Shown: piece after piece, positions 45,870-52,995 of the stretch
How positions within the stretch are numbered: position 1 is the first letter of the stretch
Layout of the letters: each line of letters starts with the position of its first letter
DNA from: Methanospirillum hungatei JF-1
GTDB taxonomy: Archaea > Halobacteriota > Methanomicrobia > Methanomicrobiales > Methanospirillaceae
Reading direction: 5' to 3'
Assembly (NCBI RefSeq): GCF_000013445.1
Contig: NC_007796.1
Span: 1-64,000 of the forward strand
Length of the DNA: 64,000 nucleotides
Position numbers and translations under genes: made by a program
Notes under the pieces: model-generated
What the model was told of the DNA's origin: nothing
Database searches by the model: none
The model's input: the letters and a program-made list of their open reading frames with translations, nothing else

Positions 45870-46526
45870 TCATCCCGGAATTGCATATTTTTTCTCCAAA
45901 GCATTTGCCCCGAACGTTGTGATGGTTACCAGAAGAAGGTACACAATCGCAACGGCGATGAAGGTTTCATTGTATGCAAAATATTTGGTTGCAATAAGCT
46001 TGCTTGCACCGGTTAATTCAATCACGGTGATCATATAAGCCAGCGATGAATATTTTATAAGATAAATAAATTCATTCGAAATCCCTGGTATTGACCGACG
46101 TAATGCCTGGGGTAATACAATATTTAAAATAGCCTGATTCTTTGTCATACCAAGTGCTTTTGCAGCGATTAATTGACCTTCTTTTACTGATAATATTGAG
46201 CCTCTGATATATTCTGAATTATAGGCACTATTGCAGAATATAAATCCCAGAACTGAGGCAACAAAGGGGGTCAGAACAATACCAACTGAAGGTAGTCCGA
46301 AATACAGAATAAAAAGGAGCAGTAATAATGGGCAACCCCTGAAAAATATGGTGTATATGTGCATCAGCCAGGAAAGACCTTTTCCACCATACACCCGCCC
46401 GCATGCAACTCCAACCCCGAGAAGAAAACCAATGGGTGCAGTAATAGCAACAAGCGCCAGAGTTATGAGCAGGCCATTTGCAAAGGCCGGGACCATAATG
46501 TCAAAGATGAAGGATATCTGATCCAT
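45870..46526 (-). CDS. Polar amino-acid ABC transporter permease
   Basis: 218 residues with about five membrane helices and the HisM/GlnP-family loop FFRGCPLLLLLFILYFGLPS. The EAA loop is GQLIAAKALGMTKNQAILNI, followed by VLPQALRRSIPGISNEFI, which contacts the ATPase. It is the last gene of a four-gene transporter operon (binding protein, permease, ATPase, permease), 9 bases after the ATPase gene. It is a paralogue of the permease at 47293 and probably forms a heterodimer with it. Substrate not determinable from sequence. Confidence 0.93.
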   Translation of the reverse strand: MDQISFIFDIMVPAFANGLLITLALVAITAPIGFLLGVGVACGRVYGGKGLSWLMHIYTIFFRGCPLLLLLFILYFGLPSVGIVLTPFVASVLGFIFCNSAYNSEYIRGSILSVKEGQLIAAKALGMTKNQAILNIVLPQALRRSIPGISNEFIYLIKYSSLAYMITVIELTGASKLIATKYFAYNETFIAVAIVYLLLVTITTFGANALEKKYAIPG

Positions 46527-46535
46527 GGTTCTGCC

Positions 46536-47288
46536 TTACTGACTATACTCCCTGAATTCTCCAATAAATGCCTTACACCGTTCAAATTTAGGATTATTCA
46601 GAAGTTCAGCGGGAGTTCCCTGTTCCTTGATATGTCCATGTTCCATAAAGCAGATTTTACTGGCAACAGAACATGCAAATCCCATCTCATGAGTCACGAC
46701 CAGCATGGTCATACCCTCTACAGCCAGTTTTTTCATCACTTCAAGAACTTCCCTGGTCAGTTCGGGATCAAGAGCACTGGTAGGTTCATCAAACAACATG
46801 ATGTCCGGGTCCATGGCAAGAGCTCTGGCAATCGATACCCGCTGGGCCTGTCCTCCGGATAACTCTGCAGGATAATGATCAGCCCAGTCAGCCATGCCGA
46901 CCTGTTTTAACTCAAACATTGCCTTTTCCCGTGCTTCTTTCGGGTCCATCTTTTTCACTTTCAGGAGGGCAATCTCAACATTTCTGACAGCAGTGAGATG
47001 ATCGAACAGGAAAAAGTTCTGAAAAACCATGCCGATCTTTTGTCTGAAATAATTTATCCGGGGGCCTGCATGAGTGACCTCTTCGTCATTCAAAAATATC
47101 TTTCCACTATCAGGAATTGTCAGCTGATTAATGCACCTGAGGAGAGTACTTTTTCCTGTACCTGATGGGCCGATAAAACAGATCGTCTCGCCTTTTTTGA
47201 CATCTAATGAAACTCCTTTCAGGACTTCATTTTTTCCAAAGGCTTTTTTGATATTTTCAATCCGTAAAATATATGTGGTGTCAGTCAT
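46536..47288 (-). CDS. Polar amino-acid ABC transporter ATPase
   Basis: 250 residues from ATG 47288 ([18 protein letters not shown]). Walker [19 protein letters not shown]-loop region [18 protein letters not shown], signature [16 protein letters not shown], Walker [17 protein letters not shown] and switch histidine in [12 protein letters not shown]. It belongs to the GlnQ/HisP subgroup and powers the two neighbouring permeases from the cytoplasm. Its start overlaps the 3' end of the upstream permease by a few bases, so they are coupled. The longer frame from 47366 is read within the permease and is not used. Confidence 0.95.
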
Positions 47289-47292
47289 GTGA

Positions 47293-47964
47293 TTATGATC
47301 CTCCTGGTCCGAAACCTGGTATTGCAATCTTCTTCTCGACCATATGAATGCATGAAGTTCCCGCATAACTGAGCAGAATAAAAATTACAGCACAGGCAAG
47401 GTAAATTGGCATGGTAACGTAGGTTTGTGAGACAATTTGTGATGACCGGGTGAGTAACTCGGCTACTCCGATTGCATAACAGACAGATGACTCGGTTAAT
47501 ATCTCCGGATACTGATTCGACCATCCGGGAAGAGCAATTCTCAAGGCCTGGGGTAGAATAATGCTTTTGATTGCCTGAAACCGTGACATACCCAGTGAAC
47601 GAGCAGCGATCATCTGACCTTCGGAGATTGACTGGATTGCTCCACGGAATACCTGTGACTGATATGCTGCACCCCACAAACCCAGAACTACTGCTCCAAC
47701 ATAGAATGCAGGTAAATCCAGTCCTAATGCAGGAAATATACCAAAATAGAATAAAAATAGGAGAACAAGGACAGGAAGACCTCTGAAAAACCATACGAAC
47801 GTTGCAATTGCAGATCGTACAGGAAGTGATCCATAGACCTGACCCAGAGCCAGGGGAAGTCCGACTCCCGCCCCGATAATAAGGGCAGATGCGACAAGAC
47901 CTAGTGTCAGTACAATTCCACTGAAAAGATATGGAAACCAGTCGATTAAAATGGATAATGCCAT
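47293..47964 (-). CDS. Polar amino-acid ABC transporter permease
   Basis: 223 residues with about five membrane helices. Family features: [20 protein letters not shown], the EAA loop [20 protein letters not shown], and [20 protein letters not shown]. It overlaps or abuts the ATPase gene (46536-47288) and follows the binding-protein gene by about 120 bases on the same strand. It should pair with the permease at 45870. Confidence 0.93.
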
Positions 47965-48085
47965 AATCTGTTAAACTCCGGCCCTGACATCATGATCTTG
48001 CGGGATGCAATCCCTTATAGATCCACAATAGATGGCCTTGGATCTTTTATAATCAATAATGGGTAGTAAGAAAAGATGAATTGAT

Positions 48086-48904
48086 TTATTCCATCTCATA
48101 CTTCTTCTTAAGCTCATCCCATTTTGGAGATGCCATCAGCCGGACAAGTCCTTCATTCATGGTCTCAAGAAGTTCAGTATCAGTCTTTCTGATAGCAATA
48201 CCATATTCTTCTCCGGTATCAATTTCACCGATGATATGAAGCGGTTTTCCTGCAATAGCATCAAGCATTGGTGGCCGGTCATATATTGCGAAATCAATCC
48301 GCTTATTCTGAAGGTCTGTTGCAACGAGTGGGAAATTATCATAAGTAACGAGCATATCTGCAGTCATTATACTCTTATTGACCAGGTTGTCTTCAGCCCA
48401 GAAGGCACCGGTAGTCCCGCGCTGTGCTCCGACTTTTCCTGCACCAGCCATGAAGTCATCCATGGTGAACTCTGAGTCATCGTGAACTGCTACTGACTGG
48501 TTTACCTTCCAGTATGGGTCGCTGAAATTGACGACTTCTTTCCGTTCATCGGTGATGGTCATTCCGGAGTAGACCATGTCAATCTTTCCTGCCTGCAGAG
48601 CGGGGATGATACCGTCCCATGCCATAGCCTGAATCTTGACATTAAAGCCCATTTCATCGGCAATCCACTTGACTGATTCAACATCAAATCCCTGGGGTTC
48701 CCCATTTTTGTCAATGAAACTGTACGGTGGATATTCCCCGTCAATACCTACGATATATGTTGGCTTCTCCTCGGAACCTGCTGCTGTGGCTTCCGGGGCG
48801 ACAACCGCACCTTTCTCCTCTGCCGGTTTCTCCGTACATCCGCACAGACAAACTCCAATAAGAACAAAGAATGTGATAAGAACAGATACAACCTTTTTGT
48901 CCAT
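48086..48904 (-). CDS. Amino-acid ABC transporter substrate-binding lipoprotein
   Basis: 272 residues from ATG 48904 (a TTG two codons upstream is the alternative). Lipoprotein signal: VLITFFVLIGVCLCGC, with the lipobox cysteine anchoring it outside the membrane. The mature part is a type-II periplasmic binding protein of SBP family 3: YIVGIDGEYPPYSFID, GFDVESVKWIADEMGF, WDGIIPALQAGKIDMVYSGM, TITDERKEVVNFSDPY, KVGAQRGTTG, IAIRKTDTELLETMNEGL. It is the first gene of the transporter operon. A closely related binding protein (49051) is encoded divergently 146 bases away, so the two may widen the ligand range of one permease. Confidence 0.94.
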   Translation of the reverse strand: MDKKVVSVLITFFVLIGVCLCGCTEKPAEEKGAVVAPEATAAGSEEKPTYIVGIDGEYPPYSFIDKNGEPQGFDVESVKWIADEMGFNVKIQAMAWDGIIPALQAGKIDMVYSGMTITDERKEVVNFSDPYWKVNQSVAVHDDSEFTMDDFMAGAGKVGAQRGTTGAFWAEDNLVNKSIMTADMLVTYDNFPLVATDLQNKRIDFAIYDRPPMLDAIAGKPLHIIGEIDTGEEYGIAIRKTDTELLETMNEGLVRLMASPKWDELKKKYEME

Positions 48905-49050
48905 CAACAAACGTTTTTCCTGCCATTCATTTATCCGTTTTCATTTGGTTTTCTTTACCTGAACAGGTCTTTAAAAGTCATGTGGATACATCCCGACACG
49001 TCCTCTGATTCAATTCCTAATACATATGTATATGCTCAACAAATCCAACA

Positions 49051-49881
49051 ATGATGAAAAGAAAAGGATTGGTGCTGGTCTCTCTTATTGGACTGGTTTT
49101 GTTATTGTTCATGAGCGGCTGTACGACTACTGAGCAGACTGCTCCATCATCTGAAGTACATGTTCAGCCAACTGAAGAAGTATCGCAAGCAAAAGAATCT
49201 GTTCCCCTTTACCGGGTAGGTATAGATGCTGCATATCAACCATTTTCAATGGTCGGACCTGATGGAAAAGCGACCGGATTTGATGTTGATTCCATGAAAT
49301 GGATCGCAAAAGATCAGGGATTTGAAGTTGAATTTTTACCCATTGCCTGGGACGGTATAATTCCTGCTCTCCTTGCCGGAAAAATTGATCTCGTCTACGC
49401 AGGAATGACCATTACTGAAGAGAGAAAAGAAAAAGTAAACTTTTCAAAGCCATACTGGACAGTCAACCAGATGGTAGTTGTGAAAGAAGGATCTCCGATA
49501 ACATTAGAACAGGTAAAGAACGGTTCTGTTGTCATCGGAACGCAGCGTGGATGTACTGCAGCAATATGGATCGATGAAAACCTGGTAAATCAGAGTCTTA
49601 TGCCCGCACAAAATCTGAAATTGTACGACAACACCCCGCTCGCCGTTGATGATCTGGTTTCAGGTCGTATTGATGCGGTGATGTATGACAGTACGGTCAT
49701 GAATGACATCATTGCTGGAAAACCTGTTGCAAAGATTGGAATGGTTGAGACGAATGAGGATTTCGGCATTGCTGTTCGGAAGGAAGATACAGAACTGCTG
49801 GAAAAGCTCAATTCAGGCCTTGAGAAACTCATGGCTTCACCTGATTGGGAAGCACTGAAACAGAAATATAAAATGGAGTAA
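49051..49881 (+). CDS. Orphan amino-acid substrate-binding lipoprotein
   Basis: 276 residues; lipoprotein signal LVLVSLIGLVLLLFMSGC. SBP family 3 core as in the paralogue at 48086: YRVGIDAAYQPFSMVG, GFDVDSMKWIAKDQGF, WDGIIPALLAGKIDLVYAGM, TITEERKEKVNFSKPY, VIGTQRGCTA, GIAVRKEDTELLEKLNSGL. No transporter genes follow it, so it probably uses the divergent permease/ATPase set. A TATA-like CATATGTATATG at about 49022-49033 is only some 20-25 bases before the ATG pair, so the mRNA may be leaderless. A T-rich tract after the stop (49886-49896) could end transcription. Confidence 0.93.
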   Translation: MMKRKGLVLVSLIGLVLLLFMSGCTTTEQTAPSSEVHVQPTEEVSQAKESVPLYRVGIDAAYQPFSMVGPDGKATGFDVDSMKWIAKDQGFEVEFLPIAWDGIIPALLAGKIDLVYAGMTITEERKEKVNFSKPYWTVNQMVVVKEGSPITLEQVKNGSVVIGTQRGCTAAIWIDENLVNQSLMPAQNLKLYDNTPLAVDDLVSGRIDAVMYDSTVMNDIIAGKPVAKIGMVETNEDFGIAVRKEDTELLEKLNSGLEKLMASPDWEALKQKYKME

Positions 49882-49960: not shown

Positions 49961-51052
49961 ATGAATTTTCAAAAAAAAGATTATATCCCTCTCCTGTATG
50001 CTATACTATCTGCGTTATTTTTTGGAAGTTGTGCTCCGGTAACGAAATATTTCGTATCAGATATCGGTCCGCTTATGCTTGCTGCTCTCTTTTATCTTGG
50101 CAGCGGGCTTGGTATGTGTTGTATAATCACCGGTAGGCGGATAATCAGACGAGGAGCATCTCCTGCTGATTCTCCTGTCTCACGGTCTGACATACCCTAT
50201 CTGGCCGGCATGTCATTTTTCGGAGGCATTCTTGCACCAGTCACCCTCATGTATTCTATGGAGATTACCCCGGCAGCAACCGGTTCTCTTCTGTTAAATT
50301 TTGAGTCAGTTGCAACCGGGCTGATGGCTGCCTTTCTCTTCAGGGAAGCGGTGGGAAAGCGCATCTGGGCTGCAATGGCATTCATCACCCTTTCATGTCT
50401 TATTTTATCATATGATCCAAAGGGAATATTTGGTTTTTCCATCGGGGCATTTGGAGTTCTTCTTGCGTGTTTTTTCTGGGCCTTTGATAACAATATCAGT
50501 CGGAGGGTTTCAGGAAAAGATCCATTTATGTGTATTATGATTAAGGGACTTTCTGCTGGAGTTTGCACCGGAGTAATAGGCCTTCTGGCAGGTGAGATCG
50601 CTCCTCCTCTCCTTGAAATTCCTCTTTTCTTACTGATCGGCTTTTTCAGTTATGGAGGGCTTGCCAGTGTATTCTTCCTGTTGGCACTTCGTTCAATAGG
50701 AACCGCCAGAACCGGTTTATTTCTTGCTCTATCTCCCTTTTTCGGAGTATTATTCTCCTCCTTTCTGTTCCGAGAACCATTCCATGAGGTCTTTTTCCTG
50801 GCATTTTTGGTCATGGTTATTGGGGTATATCTGCTGGTAAGCGAGAGTCATTCACATCAGCATTATCACCCTCCGCTGGTGCATAATCATCGTCATTCTC
50901 ACACTGATCTTCACCATGATCATGTCCATGATCCCTATGCTCCACCGGTCTCTTCTTCCGATGAACACAGTCATCTCCATGCACACAAGGAGATAACGCA
51001 TGATCATCCGCATAAACCGGATCTGCATCATCACCATGATCATAAAACCTGA
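49961..51052 (+). CDS. DMT/EamA-family transporter with histidine-rich tail
   Basis: 363 residues. About ten membrane helices in two EamA-type repeats fill residues 8-300 (first repeat SALFFGSCAPVTKYFVSDIG, second FGVLLACFFWAFDNNISRR, then GLASVFFLLALRSIGTARTG). The last about 65 residues are soluble and packed with histidine (about 25 His, with runs such as HHDHVHD, DLHHHHDHK), a typical metal-binding tail. The family exports metabolites or drug-like solutes; the tail suggests a link to Ni, Zn, Co or Cu, as substrate or regulator. Single gene between the binding protein and the agmatine enzyme; its substrate is unknown. Confidence 0.88.
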   Translation: MNFQKKDYIPLLYAILSALFFGSCAPVTKYFVSDIGPLMLAALFYLGSGLGMCCIITGRRIIRRGASPADSPVSRSDIPYLAGMSFFGGILAPVTLMYSMEITPAATGSLLLNFESVATGLMAAFLFREAVGKRIWAAMAFITLSCLILSYDPKGIFGFSIGAFGVLLACFFWAFDNNISRRVSGKDPFMCIMIKGLSAGVCTGVIGLLAGEIAPPLLEIPLFLLIGFFSYGGLASVFFLLALRSIGTARTGLFLALSPFFGVLFSSFLFREPFHEVFFLAFLVMVIGVYLLVSESHSHQHYHPPLVHNHRHSHTDLHHDHVHDPYAPPVSSSDEHSHLHAHKEITHDHPHKPDLHHHHDHKT

Positions 51053-51099: not shown

Positions 51100-52995
51100 A
51101 TGTCATGCATAATTGGCCTGATACAGATCTCTGTAAGTCCTCACAAATCCTGGAATATTCAGCATGCCATGGAAAACATCAGAGAGGCTGCTGAGAGTGG
51201 TGCACAGATAATCTGCCTTCCAGAATTATTCTCAACACCATATTTTCCACAACATATCGGACTTGATAGTTCCCCATTTACCGACACATGTGATGGCGCT
51301 ACGATTTACCGGTTCAGTAAACTGGCATTGGAACTGGGATGCGTTCTGATTGTTCCAATTTGTGAAAAAAGCTCAGATAATCGAATATATAATAGTGCAG
51401 TGGTGATTGATGCTGATGGGTCGGTTTTTCGGCCATATCGTAAGATTCACATCCCTCAGGATCCGCTCTTTTATGAGAAGGGATATTTTAACCCTGGCGA
51501 TGAATACAGAGTTTATAAGACAAAATATGCAAATCTAGCAGTTTTAATCTGTTTTGATCAATGGTTTCCCGAAGCAGCTCGGGAGGTAGCACTGAATGGT
51601 GCTGATATCATTTTTTATCCAACTGCTATCGGTCATATCAGGGGCGAGATCCCCGCAGAAGGTGACTGGAAGGAGTCATGGAAGGTAATTCAGCGGTCAC
51701 ATGCTATCGCGAACAGTATTCCGGTCGCTGCGGTAAACCGGTGTGGCTGGGAGGATGAACTCTTCTTTTTTGGAGGCTCCTTTATCTGCGACGCATTTGG
51801 AAAGATCCTCGTACAAGGAGATATAGACGAGGAAATTATTCTTGCAGAAGTTGATCTCTCGCTTGGCCCCTCAATCCGTGAAGCATGGGGCTTTTTTAGA
51901 AACAGAAGGCCGGACACCTATCACTCACTCACTGCTTTGGAAAAACCCGGATCAAGCACAGAATCTCTGACACCGGCAAACCAGGGATATCACATGCCGG
52001 CTGAATGGGAGCATCATGATGCTGTCTGGATGGCATGGCCATATAATGATCTGACATTTCCCCACCTTGAGGCAGTAGAAGAGACCTACCTGACCATTCT
52101 CTCTTCACTCCGATCAGAACGGGTTGAACTTCTCATCGCTGATCCCACCTATCAGGAGAAAATCCTACACATGCTCTCATTCAGGGGTGTGGACTGTTCA
52201 CATATCAGGTTCCATATTGTTCATTACTCTGATGTCTGGATACGGGATTTCGGTCCGACATGTGTAGTAAACCGGGCCCTTCATGATGTATCAGCAGTAT
52301 TCTGGGATTTTAATGCATGGGGGAACAAGTATGATGAGCTCATTCTGGATGGGGTAAAAACCCATGAGTTATTTCAGACCCTTGGCATGAAGATATTCAG
52401 GCCTGGTATCGTGCTTGAAGGGGGATCTATTGATAGCAATGGACGGGGATGTGTTCTTACCACACGGCAATGTCTCCTGAATCCAAATCGTAATCCCCAT
52501 CTCACCCAGGACGATATAGAGCATTATCTGTGTGAATATCTGTGTGCAAGAAAGATCATCTGGTTACATGAGGGTATTGCAGGAGATGATACCGACGGAC
52601 ATATTGATGACATTGCACGGTTTGTGAATCCAACCACGGTAGTATGTGCCATTGAGGAGAATCAGGAGGATGAGAACTATCTTCCTTTACAGGAAAATTT
52701 CAGGATTTTGTCTAAAGAAACCGATCAGAATAATAATCCTTTAACGGTCATCCCAATACCGATGCCTCATCCCGTGAAGGATGAATCAAACCGGTATCCG
52801 GCAAGTTATCTCAATTTTTATATTGGAAATGAAGTAGTTCTGGTCCCGGTTTTTGATGATGAGCATGATAGTCGTGCTCTTGAGATACTTCAGCCTCTCT
52901 TCCCGGATCGTGAAGTCATAGGAATACCGGCACGAGCCATGGTTGAAGGATTTGGAACGATTCATTGTGCGACGCAGCAGCAGCCTTTTGCATGA
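51100..52995 (+). CDS. Fused N-carbamoylputrescine amidase/agmatine deiminase
   Basis: 631 residues in two enzymes. Residues 1-285 are a carbon-nitrogen hydrolase (AguB type) with the E-K-C triad: E in ICLPELFSTPYF (E42), K in PYRKIHIPQDP and C in AVLICFDQWFPEAAR. Residues 295-630 are a peptidyl-arginine-deiminase-fold agmatine deiminase (AguA type): HDAVWMAWPYND, SDVWIRDFGPT, VLEGGSIDSNG, HEGIAGDDTDGHIDDIARF, and the catalytic cysteine in GTIHCATQQQP at the C terminus. AguA makes N-carbamoylputrescine from agmatine; AguB cleaves it to putrescine, CO2 and ammonia, so one chain performs both steps. The usual arrangement is two genes. Single transcription unit. Confidence 0.95.
   Translation: MSCIIGLIQISVSPHKSWNIQHAMENIREAAESGAQIICLPELFSTPYFPQHIGLDSSPFTDTCDGATIYRFSKLALELGCVLIVPICEKSSDNRIYNSAVVIDADGSVFRPYRKIHIPQDPLFYEKGYFNPGDEYRVYKTKYANLAVLICFDQWFPEAAREVALNGADIIFYPTAIGHIRGEIPAEGDWKESWKVIQRSHAIANSIPVAAVNRCGWEDELFFFGGSFICDAFGKILVQGDIDEEIILAEVDLSLGPSIREAWGFFRNRRPDTYHSLTALEKPGSSTESLTPANQGYHMPAEWEHHDAVWMAWPYNDLTFPHLEAVEETYLTILSSLRSERVELLIADPTYQEKILHMLSFRGVDCSHIRFHIVHYSDVWIRDFGPTCVVNRALHDVSAVFWDFNAWGNKYDELILDGVKTHELFQTLGMKIFRPGIVLEGGSIDSNGRGCVLTTRQCLLNPNRNPHLTQDDIEHYLCEYLCARKIIWLHEGIAGDDTDGHIDDIARFVNPTTVVCAIEENQEDENYLPLQENFRILSKETDQNNNPLTVIPIPMPHPVKDESNRYPASYLNFYIGNEVVLVPVFDDEHDSRALEILQPLFPDREVIGIPARAMVEGFGTIHCATQQQPFA

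Follow-up and report, generated by a model that had tools for sequence, protein, structure and literature searches.

A probable bifunctional AguB-AguA fusion enzyme converting agmatine to putrescine in Methanospirillum hungatei JF-1

The DNA analysed here (the window) comprises the first 64,000 nucleotides of contig NC_007796.1 of M. hungatei JF-1. Translation of the window identified an open reading frame that runs from an ATG at 51100 to a stop codon ending at 52995 with no internal stop, and in which an AguB-type domain is followed by an AguA-type domain. The gene, its parts and its upstream neighbor are as follows.

49961..51052, + strand: EamA-family transporter gene, directly upstream across a 47-bp gap; found at this place only in Methanospirillum
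51100..52995, + strand: aguBA fusion, 631 amino acids, a single open frame from ATG; the continuous frame is repeated in relatives
51100..51939, + strand: AguB-type nitrilase-fold domain, residues 1-280, from domain, fold and alignment matches
51223, 51442, 51475 and 51550: AguB-domain catalytic residues E42, K115, E126 and C151, respectively, with roles from PMC4812014
51940..51975, + strand: linker, residues 281-292, with neither length nor sequence conserved in fused relatives
51976..52992, + strand: AguA-type pentein domain, residues 293-631 (Pfam match 298-629)
52246, 52417, 52600, 52606 and 52966: AguA-domain catalytic residues D383, E440, H501, D503 and C623, respectively, with roles from PMC6447857

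EamA and ABC transporter genes lie upstream of the fusion and genes for MscL, a TPR-like protein, NIF3 and alaS lie downstream, an arrangement that follows the fusion only in Methanospirillum. No recognised polyamine gene was found within about 5 kb. A conserved operon with polyamine genes was considered and rejected, as the neighbors differ in the other loci inspected. The EamA-family transporter has a very His-rich C-terminal tail; it is possibly an exporter of metals, amines or amino acids, and a functional relationship with aguBA is possible. Positions 45870-49881 of the window encode a polar amino acid type ABC transporter with two permeases and an ATPase. Two divergent family-3 solute-binding proteins accompany it, encoded on opposite strands. 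A scan for sigma-70-type promoters, a model that is not apt for an archaeon, gave no more matches than shuffled sequences.

The initial annotation had proposed that a single protein contains both N-carbamoylputrescine amidase (AguB) and agmatine deiminase (AguA), with the enzyme of the second step first. Both proposals held, as the frame of 631 residues is uninterrupted, the N-terminal half is closest to AguB and the C-terminal half is closest to AguA. Pfam matched residues 6-255 to CN_hydrolase (E 7.7e-54) and residues 298-629 to PAD_porph, the agmatine deiminase type (E 3.5e-117). The top NCBIfam match for residues 6-277 was agmatine_aguB (TIGR03381), whose 259 bits miss the curated equivalog cut-off of 410. 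The best NCBIfam models for the C-terminal half were PRK13551 and agmatine_aguA (TIGR03380), both under their curated cut-offs; the latter scored 277 bits over residues 291-629 against a cut-off of 381.8 (382). Because both scores are sub-cut-off, the protein is filed under neither TIGR03381 nor TIGR03380. The nearest solved structure to the N-terminal half is the N-carbamoylputrescine amidohydrolase of M. truncatula (MtCPA, 5h8i), and those nearest to the C-terminal half are of the agmatine deiminase type (1xkn, 2ewo, 6nib and 2jer). Searching structures by fold, starting from the predicted model, led to the same two families.

Catalytic residues were located by alignment. In MtCPA, Glu48, Lys121 and Cys158 are catalytic and Glu132 is supporting (PMC4812014). 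E42, K115, E126 and C151 align with Glu48, Lys121, Glu132 and Cys158, and the N-terminal half has a nitrilase fold with a Glu-Lys-Cys triad and the second Glu. In the C-terminal half, D383, E440, H501, D503 and C623 sit on the deiminase motifs WIRDFGP, LEGGS, GDDTDGHID and HCATQQQP. MtAIH (6nib) uses a Cys366/His224/Asp226 triad, and its Asp220 binds the substrate tail (PMC6447857). H501, D503 and C623 align with His224, Asp226 and Cys366, and D497, four residues N-terminal of the catalytic His, is the counterpart of Asp220. This half has a pentein fold, the Cys-His-Asp set and the tail-binding Asp, and the earlier claim that both active sites are intact is thus borne out. The catalytic columns other than E440 are invariant or near-invariant across 112 fused and 29 split relatives, as is the E440 column in 40 fused sequences. 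In a straight alignment Ile180 takes the place of MtCPA Glu187, the plant residue that holds the free amine of the substrate. The M. hungatei protein has its own Glu187 a few residues on, in a loop that is two residues longer; it is kept in 104/112 fused relatives and may stand in for the plant residue. Both halves are under purifying selection: their dN/dS (NG86, against Methanospirillum relatives) is 0.08-0.17 in all comparisons that allowed an estimate of dS.

The rest of the genome was searched for polyamine genes. Pyruvoyl-dependent arginine decarboxylase (PvlArgDC) is encoded at genome positions 133037-133570, and there are two SpeD homologues, one adjoining SpeE; SpeD/SpeE for spermidine lie at about 3.166 Mb. 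Neither an arginase/agmatinase family (PF00491) member nor a second AguA was found in the M. hungatei JF-1 genome, which has one further nitrilase besides the fusion. Because arginine decarboxylase is present and agmatinase is absent, the fusion is the only recognisable route from agmatine to putrescine. Of the two M. hungatei SpeD proteins, SpeD1 (WP_011449828) is reported to decarboxylate AdoMet and SpeD2 (WP_011448617) to decarboxylate ornithine (PMC10407285). PvlArgDC and the fusion, together with the published ornithine decarboxylase, therefore provide two predicted routes to putrescine. The suggestion that the fusion makes polyamine synthesis a single-gene trait must be abandoned, since PvlArgDC, SpeD and SpeE are encoded elsewhere and ornithine decarboxylase gives the second route to putrescine. 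The text and Figure 2B legend of PMC10407285 apparently place M. hungatei among the genomes without agmatinase or AguA/AguB; contrary to that apparent listing, the genome holds both the AguBA fusion and PvlArgDC.

We favor, with a probability of about 0.88, the reading that AguBA is a bifunctional enzyme that converts agmatine to putrescine, that it replaces agmatinase, and that it was born by stop loss between aguB and aguA. The conversion itself is very probable from the sequence evidence. Using Cys623 as its nucleophile, the C-terminal half would deiminate agmatine to N-carbamoylputrescine, which the N-terminal half would hydrolyse through its own nucleophile, Cys151, giving putrescine, CO2 and ammonia. 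AguBA would stand in for agmatinase downstream of PvlArgDC, and its putrescine would feed SpeD/SpeE for the production of spermidine. The benefit of the fusion may be tethering or equal stoichiometry.

The linker had been placed at residues 285-295. It is indeed short, though its position was misjudged: it lies at about residues 281-292, and an AlphaFold monomer is disordered at residues 270-288 (pLDDT <50). The model has two well-folded domains (pLDDT 89.5, pTM 0.57) whose relative placement is not confident. Among fused relatives the linker ranges from 1 to 38 residues with no conserved sequence, and it looks like a tether. A more intimate arrangement would be one in which AguBA channels N-carbamoylputrescine, AguA being carried on a swapped AguB tail beside the entrance of the neighboring amidase. 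The C-terminal tails of nitrilase-fold dimers swap and line the partner active site, and in MtCPA the partner Cys276 and Trp277 shape the active-site entrance (PMC4812014); by analogy, AguA may be brought near the amidase entrance. Trp263, the equivalent residue, is invariant in 112 fused relatives, and the fusion is kept across most of the order and in Methanothrix, both of which are consistent with channelling. However, the variable linker and the lack of a confident inter-domain placement at a pTM of 0.57 argue against it, as do the separate aguB and aguA genes of genus g17. We consider it unlikely that AguBA is a channelling putrescine synthase whose AguA domains ring an AguB oligomer and pass N-carbamoylputrescine straight to adjacent amidase sites. 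On that reading, such a synthase would have spread through Methanomicrobiales and Methanothrix, with re-splitting in a single genus.

A survey of the proposed fusion across Methanomicrobiales covered 232 genomes, with five weak nitrilase-only matches set aside. It bore the fusion out, with AguBA found in 138/232 genomes and nearly always in one frame; the exceptions are contig-end cuts, a small number of broken genes from draft genomes, and the genus g17. PvlArgDC is present in 126 of the 138. With family f4 left aside, 1/102 genomes of the order with AguBA have a canonical agmatinase, scoring about 220-245 bits to PF00491, versus 74/90 without AguBA. In this comparison a PF00491 subfamily near 300 bits was not counted as agmatinase, the split having been chosen after the scores were seen, and the Fisher value overstates significance because the genomes are not independent. 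Several families nevertheless show the swap. In family f5, nine genomes have agmatinase only and three have AguBA only, and in family f6 genus g38 has AguBA only. Unlike canonical agmatinase, the subfamily near 300 bits accompanies AguBA in 9/10 genomes (the ten being G126, G129, G133, G145, G158, G173, G177, G193, G194 and G195). The fusion was also found outside the order in family f22, which probably represents Methanothrix-type loci. The distribution of the fusion is thus unusually broad, and telling with regard to function.

Family f4 differs in that fusion and agmatinase occur together in 35/36 genomes. In genus g27 (L153 in G056 and L160 in G076) the AguB nucleophile Cys is replaced by Ser and the supporting Glu by Asp, and both genomes also carry agmatinase; by these substitutions their AguBA is probably a naturally half-dead fusion. 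Because of the coexistence in f4 and the loss of the AguB nucleophile in this f4 subclade, the agmatinase-replacing role of AguBA is not strictly exclusive everywhere. This clade raises the question of whether one half of the M. hungatei protein is likewise non-catalytic, or acts on another substrate, for example another N-carbamoyl amine in the case of the amidase half, in which case the conversion would be incomplete. The NCBIfam scores of both halves under the equivalog cut-offs and the plant Glu187, which is not aligned, point the same way. Nevertheless, the M. hungatei protein has the full catalytic set, selection is purifying on both halves, the genome offers no other AguA and no agmatinase, and AguBA and agmatinase are near mutually exclusive in distribution, all of which make an incomplete conversion quite improbable. 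An error of frame or assembly that linked two separate genes is almost certainly not the explanation: adjacent separate aguB and aguA genes do occur in relatives, but the same continuous frame is present in independently sequenced Methanospirillum (L004, an M. hungatei MAG with 95% identity, L005, L007 and L008) and in nearly all Methanomicrobiales and Methanothrix having the gene, and the source genome is one contig of 3,544,738 bases (3.54 Mb), 99.97% complete. The fusion is therefore real. An internal start giving a separate AguA was also rejected, as no Shine-Dalgarno-like sequence precedes Met299 and the linker lacks an in-frame ATG, GTG or TTG.

The kinship of the fusion to split gene pairs bears on its origin. 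In split relatives, which come from bacteria, DPANN archaea and Thermoplasmata-related genomes, aguB is followed by aguA, adjacent and on the same strand. The two genes often overlap or lie a few bases apart, and in several pairs a Shine-Dalgarno-like site overlaps the aguB stop. Loss of the stop codon between such adjacent, co-translated genes would have produced the fusion. Because split relatives run aguB-aguA, the domain order is inherited gene order, and no functional reason for it is needed. In a tree of 125 rows the split relatives mostly branch outside the methanogen fusions. The tree requires seven fused/split changes, and fusion or fission has therefore occurred more than once; the root and several deep branches of this tree are weak. 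The ten split rows of genus g17 (L120-L129) form a well-supported group nested among fused rows. A constraint uniting the fused Methanomicrobiales without g17, a group named after the tree was seen, was marginally rejected (p-AU 0.047), which weakly favors re-splitting (fission) of a fused gene in g17. In several g17 genomes the UGA stop of aguB overlaps a Shine-Dalgarno-like site for aguA, and the two genes look translationally coupled.

The aguBA operon, known from Pseudomonas aeruginosa and represented by split relatives among L048-L083, has the same two enzyme families and the same predicted chemistry as the M. hungatei fusion, and the split relatives share its order of aguB before aguA. 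The fusion differs in being one polypeptide in an archaeal clade, with an identity of roughly 40-55% to these relatives. MtCPA and MtAIH share folds and catalytic residues with the two halves but are separate enzymes, octameric and dimeric, respectively, and the plant Glu187 is unmatched in the alignment. Agmatinase SpeB (PF00491) carries out the same overall conversion; it is an unrelated one-step enzyme, absent from the M. hungatei genome. A fused aguA-aguB gene has been mentioned in a Ca. Diapherotrites archaeon (PMC10407285), with both enzymes in one gene as in M. hungatei. That gene was reported to be clustered with speDA and speY, whereas the M. hungatei fusion has no recognised polyamine gene within about 5 kb and arginine would be decarboxylated by PvlArgDC. 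A Diapherotrites genome in our set, which may differ from the published one, has one continuous frame (L061) that is 47% identical, with AguB first. This passing mention was the only one encountered, and no characterised AguBA fusion was found among the openly accessible papers searched. Fused aguB/aguA as such has thus already been noted, and the M. hungatei gene adds a sound further case.

The published picture of polyamine synthesis in M. hungatei stressed the SpeD-derived ornithine decarboxylase, and the genome also has a complete predicted route from arginine. AguBA would explain the formation of putrescine from arginine in Methanospirillum and in many other Methanomicrobiales without agmatinase, with a two-step route in one fused protein substituting for an unrelated one-step enzyme. 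Were channelling true, AguBA would be a protein-fusion alternative to agmatinase. The fused, re-split and half-dead forms found in related genomes provide a natural test of what the fusion is used for.
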